From Ignavibacteriales bacterium (lineage in GTDB: Bacteria > Bacteroidota > Ignavibacteria > T3Sed10-11), in assembly GCA_003568415.1 (NCBI GenBank), contig PWXV01000336.1, forward strand, positions 1-64,000: a stretch of DNA of 64,000 nucleotides. Direction: 5' to 3'. Of the stretch, positions 9,920 through 23,807 are shown piece after piece (position 1 is the stretch's first letter; each line of letters starts with the position of its first letter). Both the position numbers and the translations under genes were made by a program. The notes under the pieces were generated by a model. That model had not been told where the DNA came from. It was given only the letters and a program-made list of their open reading frames with translations, and searched no databases.

Positions 9920-11251
9920 ATGGATCTTTTTCAAGAACAAAAAACATCGACCGGGAATAGACAAGCAGCCACGGCACCGCTTGCGGAACGGGTTCGCCCG
10001 AAAACAATTGATGAGTTTGTCGGTCAGCATCATATAATCGGTGAGGGTAAACCGCTCCGATTGATGCTCGAGCAAAAACAGCTTTGGTCAATCATTTTCT
10101 GGGGACCGCCGGGTGTGGGAAAAACAACGCTTGCCCGTTTGATTGCATTGCATTCCGATGCAGATTTTTATCAGTTGAATGCAGTATCATCGGGTGTTAA
10201 GGATGTACGCAATGTAATCACAAAAGCTGAGCGGAATCTGAAAACCATAAACCGGCAGTCACTCCTTTTTATCGATGAAATCCATCGCTTTAACAAAGCA
10301 CAACAGGATGCGTTATTACATTCGGTGGAAGAAGGAATCATAACATTGATCGGCGCGACAACCGAAAATCCATCATTCGAGGTGATCGGACCGTTACTTT
10401 CAAGAACGAGAGTGTATGTGCTTGAGTCATTAACCAAGGGCGACCTTGATACCATTCTCGAACATGCATTGGAAACCGACCCGTGGTTAAAATCTTACAC
10501 CATCACTATTGAAGACAGAGATCTTCTCATGCTGCATGCCGGCGGTGACGCCCGGTCTATGCTCAACGGACTTGAAACAGCCGTGCAACTTGCGGCAGCA
10601 AAAGATTCAACGGATGCTGTCTATATTTCCACTGAACATATTAGCGAAGCATTTCAACAGCGTTATGCAAAGCATGATAAAAGCGGTGAAGAGCACTTTA
10701 ACATAATCTCAGCATTTATAAAAAGTATGAGAGGCAGCGATCCGGATGCGGCGGTATATTGGCTGGCCCGTATGCTCGAGGGGGGTGAAGATCCTAAATT
10801 CATTGCAAGGAGAATGGTCATTCTCGCCTCGGAGGATATCGGTAATGCAGATCCGTTTGCCCTTGTGGTTGCGACAAACTGTTTCACCGCGACACATTAT
10901 ATAGGTATGCCGGAGGCGCGCATCATTTTATCACAGTGTGCCACCTATCTTGCATCAGCTCCGAAGAGTAATGCTGCTTATATGGCGATCGACCAAGCGA
11001 TGCGCGACGTGCGAACAAAACCTGCTGAACCGGTACCGCTTCATCTGCGAAATGCTCCGACAGCTTTGATGAAAGAACTTAATTACGGAAACGAATATAA
11101 ATACGCACACGATTTTAATGAGGGGTTTGTCGAGCAAGACTATCTGCCGGAATCACTCAAGCAAAGTATCTATTATAAACCTACGGATAACGGGCGCGAG
11201 GCAGCACTAAAAGAACGGCTCAATAATCTTTGGAAAAACAAAAAGCGATAA
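9920..11251 (+). CDS. rarA: replication-associated recombination protein RarA/MgsA AAA ATPase (start refined from 9902)
   Basis: LAERVRPKTIDEFVGQHHIIGEGKPL, WGPPGVGKTTLARLIA, LLFIDEIHRFNKAQQDALLHSVEEGIITLIGATTENPSFEV. Confidence 0.95.
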   Translation: MDLFQEQKTSTGNRQAATAPLAERVRPKTIDEFVGQHHIIGEGKPLRLMLEQKQLWSIIFWGPPGVGKTTLARLIALHSDADFYQLNAVSSGVKDVRNVITKAERNLKTINRQSLLFIDEIHRFNKAQQDALLHSVEEGIITLIGATTENPSFEVIGPLLSRTRVYVLESLTKGDLDTILEHALETDPWLKSYTITIEDRDLLMLHAGGDARSMLNGLETAVQLAAAKDSTDAVYISTEHISEAFQQRYAKHDKSGEEHFNIISAFIKSMRGSDPDAAVYWLARMLEGGEDPKFIARRMVILASEDIGNADPFALVVATNCFTATHYIGMPEARIILSQCATYLASAPKSNAAYMAIDQAMRDVRTKPAEPVPLHLRNAPTALMKELNYGNEYKYAHDFNEGFVEQDYLPESLKQSIYYKPTDNGREAALKERLNNLWKNKKR

Positions 11252-14970: not shown

Positions 14971-15564
14971 TTGAAACCTGAAAAATTGTCTATACGGCAA
15001 GATGAAGACCGTATAATTAATCGCATTAATGATGGTGATCGTGATGCGTTTAAAGAGATGGTACACCTTTACACCAGGCGATTATATTTTTACGCGTGGC
15101 AGTATCTGGGTGACCGTCATATGGCAGAGGACATTGTACAAGACCTCTTTCTGGAAATCTGGAATAAGCGGAAAACCTGGCATCCCAATGAGACATTACA
15201 GGGATACCTGCTTAAATCAATAAAAAATCGTTGCTTACGCTACATCCAAAAACAGAGGCCGATGACAAGCAGTAGTATGAGCTCATATGCCAGGGAGCAA
15301 TTTGAAGACACGGTCGCCACAACCGTCGATGTGCAGTCAAAATCCCGTATCGAAAATGCACTATTGCAACAGGATATAATGGATGCATTGCAAGCATTAC
15401 CGGAAAGATGTGGCCTCATTTTCCGTATGCACCGATTTGAAGGTATCAGTCAGAAGAAGATAGCTAAAGAGTTAAATATATCGGTGAAGACTGTCGGTAA
15501 TCAAATTCAACGTGCAGTAAGCATTTTATCTGAAAAATTAAAACATCATCTTGAAAATGAATAG
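14971..15564 (+). CDS. ECF RNA polymerase sigma-70 factor (TTG start)
   Basis: Region 2 YAWQYLGDRHMAEDIVQDLFLEIWNKR; region 4 LPERCGLIFRMHRFEGISQKKIAKELNISVKTVGNQIQRA. Confidence 0.92.
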   Translation: MKPEKLSIRQDEDRIINRINDGDRDAFKEMVHLYTRRLYFYAWQYLGDRHMAEDIVQDLFLEIWNKRKTWHPNETLQGYLLKSIKNRCLRYIQKQRPMTSSSMSSYAREQFEDTVATTVDVQSKSRIENALLQQDIMDALQALPERCGLIFRMHRFEGISQKKIAKELNISVKTVGNQIQRAVSILSEKLKHHLENE

Positions 15565-15627
15565 GGAATTTAGTGCTCTCAGTGTATCTATCTATGTAAC
15601 AATCTTTGTTTCTTTTTAATAAAAACT

Positions 15628-16554
15628 ATGCCAAATAAGGGTAAAAATAGCGATTCCAAAAAAGACTTCCAAAACCATTCGGATAAGGTATGGAACATCC
15701 TTGATGCTGTGCCCGAGTGCTCGGAGGATTTTGAGGAAAAAATACTTGCCAGCTCCACGGAAAGAGAGATGCAGAGTAGTGGCCGAAGTGGTTCATTTTC
15801 TTGGGTTTACAGAGCCGCCGCAGCTATTTTTCTGTTATTTGGGATAGGTTTATTGTATTTTATTACACAGGATGATGTGACAGATATCACATTCATCGAG
15901 TATGAAAGTGTGCTTTACAACACCGAACGTGGAGAACGAAAAGAATTACATATCTCAGATCATATCTATGTCCAACTCAATGCGGAGACCGATCTAAAAA
16001 TAATGCCCCACAAAGATAAGATGGCTCCAAGACTTGTATATTTGCGCGGAGAAGCTTATTTTAATGTATCCGATACACCTGCTGGATTTGAGGTGAAAAC
16101 CGATGCCGGTGTTGTACAGGTGATCGGAACGGCATTTAACATACGGGCTCGTGAGGATGAGGTCGATGTGGTGGTTGAATCAGGGCTTGTTTCAATACGA
16201 GGTCTTTCGTATGAGGATATTGATACCGCTGTTCAAGTGCCGGCAGGACACAGAAGTGTGAAACATAAAAATAGTCCTGCTCTCGAACCGGTTCCGATTG
16301 ATATCAAAAAGTTTTTATCCTGGAGAACCGGAGAGTTTGTATTTGAACAAACACCGCTCAGTGATGTTATTGTTAATCTTGAGCGTGCGTACAATGTCCG
16401 TATCGATTTGCAAGATCGCAATCTCGATGACATTCGGGTAACCGGAGAGTTCGGCCAAGAGCCCCTTATGCAGATCCTCAATGAAATTTGCTGGTCGGCA
16501 AATCTTCGCTACCGTCAGGAAGAGGATGTTTATATATTGTATAAACCTGACTGA
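15628..16554 (+). CDS. FecR-family anti-sigma/transmembrane sensor
   Basis: Single TM (WVYRAAAAIFLLFGIGLLYFI); EYESVLYNTERGERKELHISDHIYVQLNAETDLKI; LRGEAYFNV; VIGTAFNIRAREDEVDVVVESGLV; DUF4974/STN-like C-terminus. Confidence 0.92.
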   Translation: MPNKGKNSDSKKDFQNHSDKVWNILDAVPECSEDFEEKILASSTEREMQSSGRSGSFSWVYRAAAAIFLLFGIGLLYFITQDDVTDITFIEYESVLYNTERGERKELHISDHIYVQLNAETDLKIMPHKDKMAPRLVYLRGEAYFNVSDTPAGFEVKTDAGVVQVIGTAFNIRAREDEVDVVVESGLVSIRGLSYEDIDTAVQVPAGHRSVKHKNSPALEPVPIDIKKFLSWRTGEFVFEQTPLSDVIVNLERAYNVRIDLQDRNLDDIRVTGEFGQEPLMQILNEICWSANLRYRQEEDVYILYKPD

Positions 16555-16638
16555 TAGCAAAATATAGCACTTCACCGAATATTTTTTTGTTTATTACGGT
16601 ATAGAAACCGTGCTAAACATCGTCGAGGAGGACTTACG

Positions 16639-19272
16639 GTGAATTTTGCGGTTCGTGTTAATTATTTACAATTTTTTCTTGCCATCATAGTGTTCATCAC
16701 TGTGCCGGCCAATAGTTACGCGCAGAACGTATTATATTCCCACACCTACAAACAAGATTCCGGTCAACTCGAATCACTTAACAACGTAGCATTTGCATTT
16801 AATAACACCCCGCTTCGTGAGGCACTGGCCGCTTTTACTGAACGAACTGGTATTGTTCTGGTCTATAGTATGGATCAGGAAAAATTAAATCGGCCAGTTA
16901 CTGCAACGATTTTTTTAGAACCTCCGATAGCTGCATTACAAAAAATCATATCGGGAACCGGCCTTGAGATAATGCTTTCATCATCCGGACGAATTGTACT
17001 TGTTCCACGAATCGGTGAATACGAAGAAACCAACGGTGGTGTTGCAGGTAAAGTAGTTGACTACCACACCGGAAATCCAATATCCCGTGCCAATATCTAT
17101 GTTGAGGAACTTCAACTCGGTACTGTGACAAACGATGAGGGAGTTTTTACACTCCGTGATGTTCCGACCGGAAAGTATACAGTACGGGCAAGTCACGTTG
17201 CATACGAAACTGCAAAGCAAGATGTAACGGTTCACCCCGATGATCCGATATTTGAAAGCTTTCTATTAAATCCCGCAACCTTTAATCTTGGTGAGATTTA
17301 TGTAGACGACTACAATCAACTCCTTCATTCGGGAGGAATCAGTATATCTGGTACGACAATCGAACAAAACGAAATCACAGAACCGGGAAGATCAGGTGTT
17401 GGTCAGGTTCTCAGAACCCGGGTTGCAGGTATTACTTTTTTTGAATACGGAGCAGGTTCGGGTTCCGGTCATCTCCAATTTCGTGGTGTTGGTTCATTTT
17501 ATAATCCTACAGATTATGTACGCATCAATGTCGATGGAATACCGGTCGATGGTATATTTTGGGAAACTTTTATTACTGATAATTTATCACGTATAGAGAT
17601 TTTGCGTGGACCCCAGGCCAGCGGTCAATATGGTGCAAATGCAATGTCAGGGGTTATAAACTTATATACCGATACCGGAAAAGAGGGGACATTGGATGCC
17701 AGGGTTTCTGCTGCAGGCGGATTGGCAAAAAGTGCGGCAAGTGATTTCGACCCCCTATGGCAGGAATACTTTGGTAGTGTGGGTGGTGGAAGTGATATTA
17801 TTACCTCGGGAATAAGTATCCGGCATACACGTGATGAAGGAGTGCTCGTAAATCGTGATAGCCGGATGTCGGCCGTTACGGCAGGTACAAAGATAAATCC
17901 ATCTGATAAATTTTCTGTTCGAGGTGCATTCCGCTTCAGTGAACTAAACAGCGGTTGGCCGTACTCACAAAATATTCAATCCCTAACCGACATAACATTG
18001 ATGAAGCCCGATGTATCATCGCGGCAACAACGCGGGATCGGTAGCGTGAATATAGACGTAAACTTGTTCAGGTGGTGGAAGCAAAAATTTACGGTTGGGT
18101 CTGAATATATGCACGGTGTAATGGAATATGAAACAAGCGAACTGGTCCCCGTTGCCGGGGAAAATAGAACAACACAGAAAACAGTTTCAATGCGTGAACG
18201 CGATATGCATATTCGTCCGACGATTCATTATAATACAAAGTTGATCATCCCGATGGGAGATACCGAACATGCAAGCTTCTCGGGTGGGATTGAGATACAA
18301 CGCGAAGATAGAGAGCGGGATGTACAAAGAGAGATTGAAAGCGATGTTTTTGAACAGATATCAGGCGGCAGTTCAGAGCAGACTATTATTGGAAAATATT
18401 TAAGCTGGTCGTTCCATTCCCATGAGAATCTTGATGTGACGGTCGGTTTTCGAATGGATCAAATTCGGGCAGAGGGGAAAACGTTTAATTATCCAATGAG
18501 TCCGTCTCTTAATGTAGGATATCGATTCCAGGTTGCAGATTACTGGCTGGGAATTGCACGAGGCAGTGTCGGACGCGGCATACGACACCCGCATTATTCA
18601 ATGATTTTTGGCCGGCTACCGGTTGAAGAACCAAATCCGGAATTAGGTGCTGAGATTATGGATGGCTGGGAAGCAGGGGTCAGTAATTATTTTGCAGACG
18701 GTAGACTGATGCTATCAACAACTTTCTTTTCACAAGAAACACATGATGCATTTCAGGCAGTAGCCGTTCAGAGTAATGCCAATACATACCGATGGGTAAA
18801 TGGCGGAAGAGTAACCAATCGTGGACTTGAACTCGAAGCACACATAACTCCGGTACATTGGCTGCAACTTGGTATTACACATATCTTTCATTGGAATCGG
18901 GCTATTGACCTTCGACAGGAAGATCCTCACGAATTTACGTTATTGCGGATTCCTGACATAGCGGGATCATTCTTTTTCGCTATTCAACCAGTATCGAATC
19001 TGAATATGAATTTCGACATTTACTATGTTGGTGAAAGGCTTGATGTCGATATTGAGGCATGGCATAATGAGGGGCGCTCTCTTCGATTTAGTGATTATGA
19101 GAAAATGTTCTCACCATACTTGAAAGTAGATTTCTTCGGCAGATATCAAATACTCAACGAGCATGAACTTTTCCTCAACATATATAATTTATTAAACGAT
19201 ATGACCCGTGAATATGGTGGTATGCCTTCTTCCGGCAGAATGATCATATTTGGCCTACGCTATAATTTCTAG
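16639..19272 (+). CDS. TonB-dependent receptor with STN and carboxypeptidase-regulatory-like N-terminal domains (GTG start)
   Basis: NTPLREALAAFTERTGIVLVY (STN); GVAGKVVDYHTGNPISRANIYVEELQLGTVTNDEGVFTLRDVPTGKYTVRASHVAYE; plug IEILRGPQASGQYGANAMSGVINLYT; C-terminal GLRYNF. Confidence 0.93.
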   Translation: MNFAVRVNYLQFFLAIIVFITVPANSYAQNVLYSHTYKQDSGQLESLNNVAFAFNNTPLREALAAFTERTGIVLVYSMDQEKLNRPVTATIFLEPPIAALQKIISGTGLEIMLSSSGRIVLVPRIGEYEETNGGVAGKVVDYHTGNPISRANIYVEELQLGTVTNDEGVFTLRDVPTGKYTVRASHVAYETAKQDVTVHPDDPIFESFLLNPATFNLGEIYVDDYNQLLHSGGISISGTTIEQNEITEPGRSGVGQVLRTRVAGITFFEYGAGSGSGHLQFRGVGSFYNPTDYVRINVDGIPVDGIFWETFITDNLSRIEILRGPQASGQYGANAMSGVINLYTDTGKEGTLDARVSAAGGLAKSAASDFDPLWQEYFGSVGGGSDIITSGISIRHTRDEGVLVNRDSRMSAVTAGTKINPSDKFSVRGAFRFSELNSGWPYSQNIQSLTDITLMKPDVSSRQQRGIGSVNIDVNLFRWWKQKFTVGSEYMHGVMEYETSELVPVAGENRTTQKTVSMRERDMHIRPTIHYNTKLIIPMGDTEHASFSGGIEIQREDRERDVQREIESDVFEQISGGSSEQTIIGKYLSWSFHSHENLDVTVGFRMDQIRAEGKTFNYPMSPSLNVGYRFQVADYWLGIARGSVGRGIRHPHYSMIFGRLPVEEPNPELGAEIMDGWEAGVSNYFADGRLMLSTTFFSQETHDAFQAVAVQSNANTYRWVNGGRVTNRGLELEAHITPVHWLQLGITHIFHWNRAIDLRQEDPHEFTLLRIPDIAGSFFFAIQPVSNLNMNFDIYYVGERLDVDIEAWHNEGRSLRFSDYEKMFSPYLKVDFFGRYQILNEHELFLNIYNLLNDMTREYGGMPSSGRMIIFGLRYNF

Positions 19273-19361
19273 CAATTTCCCCTCATCTTATTAAGGTAGT
19301 AATTACCTGCAGTATATAATTCCATCAAAACTTTGCACTCTCCTTTGTAGAATTTACACAA

Positions 19362-19390
19362 ACTGAATTGTAATACTTCAGTCTTTTTTT
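19362..19390 (+). terminator. candidate rho-independent terminator downstream of the receptor
   Basis: ACTGAA-TTGTAATAC-TTCAGT then C and T7. Confidence 0.45.
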
Positions 19391-19529
19391 GTGTTTTTTG
19401 CCCAAACTGCACATTATTCGACAATATTGGTTGCAGACCGTAATGGCACACAATATGAGTCATTATTTCTTAGAAATAATAACCATATTAATACTATAAG
19501 TTTTTCAAATTACGTGGAGTGAAGAAATC

Positions 19530-22157
19530 ATGCTGCAGACCAGAAACCAAAATCAGCCGAAAGTAGATCAACTGCAGGAAGTTGCGGTCTACTTACGCCG
19601 TGCAGATAAATTGGTAAAAAACGGCAATTACAGCGATGCGCTTGAGGAAATTCAAAAAGCCCGGACTTATAATCCCAAAAACCTTTATGCGCTGGCGTAT
19701 GAAGAGAGGGTGCGTTCTATTATTTCTGCCCAGAAAAATAAAGGAGAGTCTTCGTCTGCAGCGTCCTCTGAGGATCTCGAGAAAATTTCCGATCGTGCTA
19801 TAGCTGAAGCGCAGAGAAGTGCCGATGTTGCAGCAAAACGTCAACAACGAATTGATAAAATTAAGCAAGAAGAAGAGGCGGCAAAAAAACTGGAAGAACA
19901 GCAACGGACTGCAATACGAAAGAAAGTGTACGATCTGTTGCTTAAAGCCCGTGAATACCATTCTAACCGGGAGTACAACCGCGCTCTTGATGAAATCGCC
20001 AGGATACATATGATAGATCCGTCGAATTCAAATGCAACTGAATTGGAAGAACGGATTCGAGCTGATCAGGATGCTTCGATTCGTGAAGCTGAAGCAGAAA
20101 GAAAACGTAAACAGCAAGAGGAAGAAAACAGGCGTAAAGAGTATTTGAAATCGGAACTCGAGCGGATTAAACGGGAAGATGAGGAGAAAAAACGCAAGGA
20201 AGAAGAAGCCCGACAAAAAGCACAAAAACAAAAAGTACAGCAACATCTAAAGCGTGCCCGAAAATTATGTGATGACGGCTATCTTGATGATGCTCTTGCA
20301 GAGCTTGCATTTGTCGTGGTTATCGATCCGCTGCATGAGGAGGTTCTTGATCTTGAACAACGGATACGGGAGATGGAGGAGGAGCAACAGGCAACTGAAA
20401 TAGAACGATTAGAACGAGAAAAGCATACACATAACCGGAGTAGAGAAGAAACCCAATCTCAAATACAAAAGCATATACGGAATGCGAAAACATTTATGCA
20501 AAAGAATGAATTTTCAGACGCACTCCGTGTTATATCCTCTGCATACGTTATAGATCCGTTAAATGAAGAATTACAGGAGTGTGAGGCTGAAATAATCAAA
20601 GCGCGTGATGCGTATCTGCAAGCTGAGGAGGAGAAAAAACGCAAGCAGGAGGAAGCACAACTCCGTAAACAAGAAGAGGAAATGCGCGAGCTTATCAAGA
20701 ATGCACAAGAGCGTGCACGTTCTGGTGAGGGGGTTCAGCAGGAAGAAAAAAGACGAGAAGCCAAAGAACGAATTGCAAGTTATCTTGCACACGCCCGTTC
20801 TTATCTCAAGAATGAACAATATGAAAGTGCACTCGGGGAAGTTGCTCTTGCCTTTGTTATTGATCCGTTTGATGAAGATATTAGCAAGCTTGAACAAGAG
20901 ATTATCGATGCACAGAATAAACGCCGTACCAGAGATAATATCGAGGAAGCAAAACAAAAATCTGTACCGGAGCAGACAACAACAAAAAGAGACAAAGAAG
21001 ATATTGAAGACAGAAAAGAACAGGAGGTTACTCCACAACAAAGTTCAGACGATGATACCACCAAACGTGCACAACGGGCTGCACGACATATTGCTGAAGC
21101 ACGGCGACTCAAGAAGCAAAAAGAATACCATAAAGCCCGCAACGAGTTAACCAAGGCGTTTATGCTCGATCCTCTTAATGACGAACTCTCTGATTTCGAG
21201 CAGGAATTGCAGCAAGAGTATGCAAAACAACAGGAAGAGGCTAAACGACTCAAAGCAACGCGGGCTTACGCGAACAGGGCCAAGCAATACCTCGCACAGG
21301 AAAATTTTGCAAAAGCACTGGAAGAGCTTGAAACCGGTTTGAAATCAAATCCCGGCGATCAAGAGTTGATCGAATTAAAGAAACGGATACAGGAAGCAGA
21401 AAAAAGATGGCGTGAAGTCGAGGAACTATGGGAGAAGGTGTCGACATCCGACCATCGAAGTATGCGTTCAGGTAATCCAAACTCGAAGAACCAGTACAAA
21501 GAAGCGCTCACGAATTATTATGCAAAGCTTGAAGAGACCGGTGTCAAGAGTGAACGTCGAAGGGAAGAAAAATCCACAAACGGTAAAGTCAAAACCAAAA
21601 AGGAAAAGAATGATTCCGAAGTTGTCGATATAGAAGAAGAAATCCGGAAAGTGTACGAATCGTGGCGACAGGAACAACAGGAAATCGAGCGGGGTGAACG
21701 TGAAGCAAAAATACAGGGACATATAAAACGGTCAAGAGAATTGCTGAAAAAGGAAGTATTCGATGAGGCACTTGCCGAAATTGCATATGCTAAAATGATC
21801 GATGATAAACGGAAAGACCTTGAAAAGCTTGAAAAAGATATTTGGAACACATGGAATGAGAAATCAAATAACAGTAAGGATAGCGTAAACAATACACCAT
21901 CTCACGGAAGTGATGTTGAGTCACAGGAGGAACGCAACATATCACTGCGGATTCATGTACGCGCTGCGGAAGAATTTGCCGAAAAAAAAGAATATACAAA
22001 AGCACTTGATGAAATAACAAAAGCGTATCTGATCGATCCACTCAATGAGGAAGTTGCAAGACTTGATAAACGGATTCGACATCTCCAGGGTAAAGGTACA
22101 GAAATGAAACAGCTCAAACTGGTATATCCCTCTGCAAAAGTAGTCGGTGGATATTGA
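19530..22157 (+). CDS. large charged coiled-coil / TPR-like repeat protein, 875 aa
   Basis: About nine copies of a ~42-aa helical repeat (e.g. HLKRARKLCDDGYLDDALAELAFVVVIDPLHEEVLDLEQRI, HIRNAKTFMQKNEFSDALRVISSAYVIDPLNEELQECEAEI) separated by K/E/Q/R-rich segments; no signal peptide. Confidence 0.85.
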   Translation: MLQTRNQNQPKVDQLQEVAVYLRRADKLVKNGNYSDALEEIQKARTYNPKNLYALAYEERVRSIISAQKNKGESSSAASSEDLEKISDRAIAEAQRSADVAAKRQQRIDKIKQEEEAAKKLEEQQRTAIRKKVYDLLLKAREYHSNREYNRALDEIARIHMIDPSNSNATELEERIRADQDASIREAEAERKRKQQEEENRRKEYLKSELERIKREDEEKKRKEEEARQKAQKQKVQQHLKRARKLCDDGYLDDALAELAFVVVIDPLHEEVLDLEQRIREMEEEQQATEIERLEREKHTHNRSREETQSQIQKHIRNAKTFMQKNEFSDALRVISSAYVIDPLNEELQECEAEIIKARDAYLQAEEEKKRKQEEAQLRKQEEEMRELIKNAQERARSGEGVQQEEKRREAKERIASYLAHARSYLKNEQYESALGEVALAFVIDPFDEDISKLEQEIIDAQNKRRTRDNIEEAKQKSVPEQTTTKRDKEDIEDRKEQEVTPQQSSDDDTTKRAQRAARHIAEARRLKKQKEYHKARNELTKAFMLDPLNDELSDFEQELQQEYAKQQEEAKRLKATRAYANRAKQYLAQENFAKALEELETGLKSNPGDQELIELKKRIQEAEKRWREVEELWEKVSTSDHRSMRSGNPNSKNQYKEALTNYYAKLEETGVKSERRREEKSTNGKVKTKKEKNDSEVVDIEEEIRKVYESWRQEQQEIERGEREAKIQGHIKRSRELLKKEVFDEALAEIAYAKMIDDKRKDLEKLEKDIWNTWNEKSNNSKDSVNNTPSHGSDVESQEERNISLRIHVRAAEEFAEKKEYTKALDEITKAYLIDPLNEEVARLDKRIRHLQGKGTEMKQLKLVYPSAKVVGGY

Positions 22158-22173
22158 AAAAGGAGTTGTGTAG

Positions 22174-23430
22174 ATGAAAAAAAATGAGCAAGCATTACAC
22201 GAAGTAATTTCGGCACATCTCAGCGAATGCAAAAAATATATAGAAGCTGAGGTGTATTACAAAGCGTTGGCGGCTATTAAGAATGCTAAGTATGCTGACC
22301 CTCGTAATATATATATTATAGCGCTCGAGAAGCAGGTCGAATTGTTATCAGACCTGAGTAAAAAGCGGCCGGCATCAGATGCAAATAAGAAAGAAGTCCG
22401 TGAGACTATACCTGAGATAATCCGCCGTGCAATTGATGACACGAGCAAACGTGAGGCGATGAAATCGAAGAAGAATCAGAATGATAATGAGAACGAAACT
22501 TCGAGTGATCCAATGGAACTCGAACGTAATCTCGCTATGAAGAAACTTAAAAATCAGTTTGTGAAGCTGGCCGAAGAATTTATTGACAAGGGAGATTACC
22601 AAAGTGCACTCGAAGAAATCCGGCGAATCTTTATTGTCGATCCGGATAATAAAACCGCCAAAGAACTCGAAAAGAAAATACAAACACTTGTCAGTTACCA
22701 TTCAACCGATGACTTAGAAGAGCCACCGGAATCAAAGAAAAAGAAGAAAAAGAGATTTTCAATCGGTAGAGTTGCACCGTGGGCTATTGTACTACTAATT
22801 CTGGGAAATATAATTGTTTTTTATCAAACATCTATGATATCTGGCCGCGATACGGAGGGTGATGGATTTGCGTACTCATCTTATTCCGAGAATATGGTTA
22901 CCGATTCCCAAACCCGTGCTTCGGAAGAATATCAGGAGATGTCGGACACAGAATCATACTCATCACAGTCTTCAACCACGCTGCCTGATGCCGTAACTGA
23001 CTATCGGGAGGTAGTTCCCGTAGCTGACGATACATCAGAGGAGGATGATGAGTATGAATACACGAATGATACCACCACGTTAGACGAGTCTGCCATAGCT
23101 GATCTCACGGTTGAAGAGAGCGAAGCAGAAGCGGGCTCCCTAACCCCGCGTGTTACCGTTGATAAACCTGATATAACAGTACAAATTCAGGAGCCCGAGT
23201 ATCCGGCTGAAGCGCTTGATCTCGGGATTGAGGGTGAGGTAATCATTCGTGTAAGATATAATGCCTCTGGGACTGTCAATGCATCTTTCGTAGAAAGCAC
23301 CGATCATCCATTATTATCCGACTCCGCACTAGAATCGGCACGTCAATCGATTTTCTCACCTGCAGATACGATTATTTTAGAAGAGGGAGAATGGGTGAGT
23401 ATTCCGTACCGTTTTCATCTTGGGCGTTAG
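22174..23430 (+). CDS. TonB-family protein with cytoplasmic N-terminal repeat domain
   Basis: Two N-terminal repeats (AHLSECKKYIEAEVYYKALAAIKNAKYADPRN; KLAEEFIDKGDYQSALEEIRRIFIVDPDN), K-rich stretch, one TM (PWAIVLLILGNIIVFYQTSMI), acidic linker, TonB C-terminal domain (PEYPAEALDLGIEGEVIIRVRYNASGTVNASFVESTDHPLLSDSALESARQSIFSPA). Confidence 0.88.
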   Translation: MKKNEQALHEVISAHLSECKKYIEAEVYYKALAAIKNAKYADPRNIYIIALEKQVELLSDLSKKRPASDANKKEVRETIPEIIRRAIDDTSKREAMKSKKNQNDNENETSSDPMELERNLAMKKLKNQFVKLAEEFIDKGDYQSALEEIRRIFIVDPDNKTAKELEKKIQTLVSYHSTDDLEEPPESKKKKKKRFSIGRVAPWAIVLLILGNIIVFYQTSMISGRDTEGDGFAYSSYSENMVTDSQTRASEEYQEMSDTESYSSQSSTTLPDAVTDYREVVPVADDTSEEDDEYEYTNDTTTLDESAIADLTVEESEAEAGSLTPRVTVDKPDITVQIQEPEYPAEALDLGIEGEVIIRVRYNASGTVNASFVESTDHPLLSDSALESARQSIFSPADTIILEEGEWVSIPYRFHLGR

Positions 23431-23759: not shown

Positions 23760-23770
23760 TTTTGTTGGAG

Positions 23771-23807
23771 AAAAAACGGAATGTATTTGTATGCATTCCG
23801 TTTTTTT
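23771..23807 (+). terminator. rho-independent terminator of rpmE
   Basis: AAAAACGGAATG-TATTTGTATG-CATTCCGTTTTTTT. Confidence 0.9.

Follow-up and report, generated by a model that had tools for sequence, protein, structure and literature searches.

A conserved pair of a putative TPR-like scaffold and a TonB-like membrane protein in Ignavibacteria, located behind a FecIR-type signalling trio in one genus

Do a large scaffold protein and a TonB-like membrane protein, encoded directly behind a sigma factor/FecR/receptor locus, belong to that signalling system or are they a module of their own? The question is raised by five consecutive plus-strand genes in a 64,000-nucleotide stretch of DNA (the window) from an Ignavibacteriales bacterium. 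An initial annotation made from the sequence had read these genes as a single signalling and transport system, in which the scaffold (here A) and the TonB-like protein (here B) would link energy transduction to the receptor. Our open reading frame calls agree with its five genes and their coordinates (Table 1). What it observed held up; its interpretation was supported in part.

Table 1. Features of the locus and of its counterparts in the same genus (positions refer to the window unless a locus is named).
Feature	Position	Strand	Remarks
ECF sigma factor, TIGR02985 group	14971..15564	+	197 aa; profile match
FecR-type anti-sigma regulator (FecR + FecR_C)	15628..16554	+	308 aa; PF04773 + PF16344
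TonB-dependent receptor	16639..19272	+	877 aa; CarbopepD_reg, plug, barrel; probable STN at about residues 45-125
Spacer between trio and A, 257 bp	19273..19529	+	weakly conserved; no convincing terminator or promoter
A, TPR-like scaffold	19530..22157	+	875 aa
A part found behind the trio in 6/6 genomes of the genus	21252..21695	+	A residues about 575-722; free-standing in G001 and G003
B, TonB-like membrane protein	22174..23430	+	418 aa
Free-standing short A gene, no B, directly after the receptor	L148:6046-6456, L149:6061-6465	minus	one TPR-like unit + genus-specific A segment

The first three genes are an ordinary cell-surface-signalling trio, as had been proposed. The sigma factor matched TIGR02985 with 157.9 bits (cut-off 126.4), the FecR protein exceeded the cut-offs of both of its Pfam families, and the receptor exceeded those of CarbopepD_reg_2, Plug and TonB_dep_Rec. 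The sigma factor and FecR genes are adjacent and in the same orientation, together with a TonB-dependent receptor gene, as in FecI/FecR/FecA systems. The STN signalling domain previously assigned to the receptor is less firm: in the window its match is under the Pfam threshold (E 0.033), but three of four congeners have a match at the identical position (best E 0.0005). This recurrence, together with a weak alignment of the region to the FemA signalling domain, makes an STN domain likely. In its genes and their order (sigma factor, FecR protein, probable STN-type receptor) the locus resembles classical FecI-FecR-FecA signalling. It differs in A and B, which classical systems lack, which are attached to the trio only in the window's genus, and which are partly or wholly lost there in half of the genomes.

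Successive genes are separated by 63, 84, 257 and 16 bp, and these sizes make A and B look like a unit apart from the trio. A hairpin at 19362-19390, within the longest spacer, had been suggested as a candidate terminator. Its stem is 6 bp long with two G-C pairs, conservation does not extend to the nearest relative and it is not among the terminators listed by the terminator scan, so a strong terminator at this place is unsupported. Between B and a sugar nucleotidyltransferase gene there is a small plus-strand gene resembling ribosomal protein L31 (23508-23759), with a strong terminator-like hairpin 3' of it (23770-23807).

About nine repeats had been noticed in A, and nine TPR-like units were found (residues 22-61, 137-177, 240-280, 316-356, 419-459, 521-561, 582-621, 732-771 and about 810-850). 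Each scored 11-53 bits with a model built from the A proteins of other species, compared to a best score of 6.2 bits among 400 shuffled sequences. A also exceeded the Pfam cut-offs of TPR_2 (39.1 bits) and TPR_14 (37.4 bits), it carries the 34-residue helix-turn-helix motif with the consensus residues of the TPR family, and the closest solved relatives of the units are designed TPR proteins. The units of A and B are divergent TPR motifs; a new type of repeat or fold was ruled out by the Pfam matches and the likeness to designed TPRs. The structure predicted for A (mean pLDDT 75) shows helical hairpins connected by single charged helices, the longest of about 80 residues, while the overall shape and the angles between units are unreliable (pTM 0.26). 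A shares the unit consensus and the helix-turn-helix fold with TPR scaffold proteins, whose consensus units form superhelices. However, the units of the modelled A are spaced by charged helices instead of standing in tandem, and would be arranged as beads on a rod.

B is predicted to consist of a TPR-like unit (residues 8-64), a long helix, a second unit (113-181), a membrane helix (about 200-223), a disordered linker (226-332) and a TonB C-terminal domain (334-414). This last domain scored 37.8 bits against TonB_C (cut-off 24.6), and its predicted structure matches solved TonB domains. Two copies of the A-type repeat had been ascribed to B. The model from other species' A repeats recovered unit 2 with 28.8 bits; unit 1 scored only 1.4 bits and, despite this, was predicted as the same three-helix unit. 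Both are under the TPR cut-offs, yet are predicted to fold like TPR units. All 42 B homologues bearing a membrane helix (two are duplicate records) have one strong hydrophobic helix, mostly preceded by basic residues. Basic residues mark the cytoplasmic side of a membrane helix (positive-inside rule), which places the repeats of B in the cytoplasm. The predicted topology, with TPR-like units inside and the TonB fold outside, agrees with the one originally described. A defence system was rejected as no PADLOC match was found, and plasmid carriage was rejected as B had no plasmid match.

The suggestion that A and B belong together was supported: their pairing is conserved and the coupling tight. 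Among 393 genomes of the class Ignavibacteria, A (counted at E<=1e-40) is present in 36, full-length B in 38 and both in 31 (co-occurrence was tallied by hand from the result tables). Wherever the two genes are on one contig, B comes directly after A: the distance ranges from -26 to +73 bp, an overlap of 4 bp is frequent, and the arrangement was seen across four families. A first contig scan with B alone gave no match; a scan with an alignment of A gave matches. In a phylum-wide sample, full-length B was confined to the same class. There are exceptions: some genomes of family f12 (genera g94 and g117) retain B with TonB_C and have no adjacent A, so A is not always the partner of B, and a few genomes of family f17 carry an A-like protein without B. 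A and B may contact each other directly. A literature search on Ignavibacteria and these protein features found no paper.

The surroundings of the pair vary between families, and it is mostly found away from sigma factor, FecR and receptor genes, an outcome that the initial annotation had itself named as refuting its reading. It stands beside FecR only in the window and in one congener (G002). A class-wide conserved five-gene system was rejected because FecR adjoins the pair only within the window's genus, to which the five-gene order is confined. In family f3 the pair is 3' of genes for a TPR protein, a DUF4292-like lipoprotein and an EnvC-like protein, and in f12 it lies between GH31/MalK genes and a DUF4139 gene, at a locus where a LacI regulator and a receptor are encoded as well (the names EnvC, DUF4292 and MalK are readings of the sequences, not library matches). 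In f17 the pair is found amid histidine kinase, receiver and SpoIIE genes. One f3 genome (G081) has the pair instead in front of an ABC transporter set: at L106 (G081:C2, 686-8113, minus strand), genes for an ABC ATPase, an ABC2 permease and an ABC_transp_aux protein lie 3' of A and B on the same strand, and resemble GldA/F/G-type gliding ABC genes. The f12 sugar locus (LacI, TonB-dependent receptor, MalK-like, GH31) is conserved, with the pair or B alone, at L043, L044, L114-L117, L119 and L134. Proteins with an N-terminal A-type repeat and a C-terminal receiver-like domain are encoded at L049:8567-9721, L065:9953-11065 and L066:9911-11470, indicating that the A-type unit also serves two-component proteins.

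The TonB half of B is variable. At the f12 sugar locus of genus g20, B lacks this half, and in f17 B has 155-160 residues, with neither membrane helix nor TonB domain. For most TonB-bearing B genes of f3, the surrounding region of about 8 kb contains no receptor. The genomes contain roughly 13-33 plug matches each, and the receptors at the f12 sites were apparently inherited from one ancestral locus. An enrichment of receptors near TonB-bearing B was judged not significant, with about two independent linkages (a hand estimate, with no formal test). Still, at the f12 sugar locus a TonB-bearing B is for a second time associated with a receptor, and this fits energising as well as tethering.

The window's genus offers a natural deletion series. 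All six genomes, which are drafts of 68-95% completeness, have the FecR orthologue. All five genes occur in this order in the window and in G002, where the contig ends within B, ahead of the TonB part; two contigs of G004 fit the order too. In G005, A has shrunk to approximately the unit-7 region and B, with 197 residues, stops before the membrane helix. In G001 and G003, B is absent and A is reduced to a gene of 134-136 aa whose product corresponds to A residues about 575-721. That these two genomes lack B is concluded from the intact synteny (trio, short gene, L31-like gene, nucleotidyltransferase gene), not from completeness. Genomes in which B is missing or stops at the membrane helix still have an intact receptor and FecR. 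The trio persists without B and consequently does not need it; the pair, in turn, is found without the trio in f3, f12 and f17. The pair is independent of the trio, and the single five-gene system initially proposed is not sustained.

Two results leave room for a weaker link to the trio: the A segment kept directly behind it in every genome of the genus, and the TonB-bearing B beside the f12 receptor locus. A dN/dS of 0.125 between G001 and G003 indicates purifying selection on the short A gene. Relatives of it were found in none of the 290 other genomes of the class searched, at the sensitivity used, and A residues 622-722 had no match outside the genus. This genus-specific segment may act locally together with the trio. 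The sigma factor gene of G003 (L149, G003:C323, about 10387-11010, minus strand) has an in-frame TAG in place of the lysine codon of its relatives (LLKSI*NRC vs LLKSIKNRC), reflecting decay or an assembly error.

Energy transduction, the role first suggested for B, is not favoured on sequence grounds. In E. coli TonB, Ser16 and His20 contact ExbB (PMC12215075). B does not have this canonical Ser/His pair, and a histidine was found in the predicted membrane helix of none of the 42 membrane-helix-bearing B homologues. ExbB and ExbD are not encoded within the 64-kb window, as already noted in the initial annotation; the same genome encodes a canonical TonB-ExbB-ExbD set on contig C111, whose TonB has a histidine in its membrane helix, and an ExbB-ExbD-ExbD set on C83. 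The lack of the helix histidine in B homologues and the presence of a canonical set elsewhere disfavour energising. The argument is not conclusive, because the genome encodes another TonB-type protein without a helix histidine (221 aa, C73), and the histidine criterion is hence not absolute. Two more TonB_C proteins of the same genome, of 542 aa (two TonB_C matches) and 143 aa, are encoded at L140 (G000:C30, 7787-12303). Their N-termini are lipoprotein- or signal-like, and their genes are preceded, at the contig end, by one sigma-like and one anti-sigma-like gene.

B is like canonical TonB in its single membrane helix, periplasmic linker and TonB_C fold. TonB proteins in general have no cytoplasmic domain (PMC8262864), whereas B has approximately 195 TPR-like cytoplasmic residues, no helix histidine and no ExbBD nearby. 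The nearest functional parallel is GltG/GltJ. GltG of the Myxococcus xanthus gliding machine has a protein-interaction (FHA) domain together with a membrane helix and a TonB-like domain and takes part in trans-envelope coupling, and the machine includes TPR proteins (PMC3169522). The resemblance is one of layout, not of membership: GltG has an FHA domain and works with the AglRQS motor, while the cytoplasmic domain of B is of a different type and gave no FHA match.

The explanation that we put forward, with an even chance of being right, is that A and B together form a scaffold or tether across the cell envelope, carried by part of the Ignavibacteria and inherited apart from the trio. A would be a cytoplasmic string of TPR-like units spaced by long charged helices, and B would probably be its membrane partner, with two like units in the cytoplasm and a flexible periplasmic linker. 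The TonB domain of B could touch the TonB box of a receptor, or another outer-membrane or wall partner. B would probably act as a tether, or as a reporter of position or state, uncoupled from ExbBD, rather than as a proton-driven energiser. Different lineages would have placed the pair in different signalling or uptake loci, here behind a FecIR-type trio, with which the genus-specific A segment may have acquired a role. It is somewhat unlikely that the locus consists of two unrelated units, namely a complete FecIR-type trio and an A-B module unconnected with the receptor and serving, for instance, envelope organisation or two-component signalling. The 257-bp spacer, the varying contexts in other families and the two-component setting in f17 agree with such a separation. 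However, an A part retained directly behind the trio in all six genomes, under purifying selection, exceeds a chance neighbourhood, although shared descent of a single locus could still explain it.

We consider it unlikely that B is a specialised TonB that borrows the ExbBD of the genome for the receptors of the locus, with A positioning or clustering it. The genuine TonB_C fold, the receptors beside the pair in family f1 and at the f12 locus, and ExbBD proteins that could act in trans would all suit a dedicated energiser. Against it, the trio persists without B (G001, G003) or with a B lacking TonB (G005), the membrane helix has no histidine, most TonB-bearing B genes of f3 have no receptor nearby, and the B versions of f17 and g20 have no TonB domain. 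That the pair is decaying baggage, partly kept in the window's genus, is very improbable. The truncations in G001, G003 and G005 would be expected from decay, but A and B are open reading frames with low dN/dS between the window and G002 (0.07 for A and 0.15 for B, with synonymous sites nearly saturated), and the short form of A is itself under purifying selection.

The scaffold or tether reading can be extended, doubtfully, to an undescribed ExbBD-independent trans-envelope relay, in which the TonB domain of B would read or hold the state of outer-membrane receptors, the TPR-like units of B would transmit it to the rod of A, and this rod would gather regulators, with coupling to sigma/FecR, LacI or two-component proteins according to lineage. 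If true, one relay would be coupled to different control systems in different lineages. With its six genomes, the deletion series, which keeps the trio but loses B and most of A, opens the dependence to direct tests. The usual view of TonB-domain proteins is that they transduce energy and have no cytoplasmic part; the A-B pair suggests that TonB domains may also link cytoplasmic assemblies to the outer membrane.
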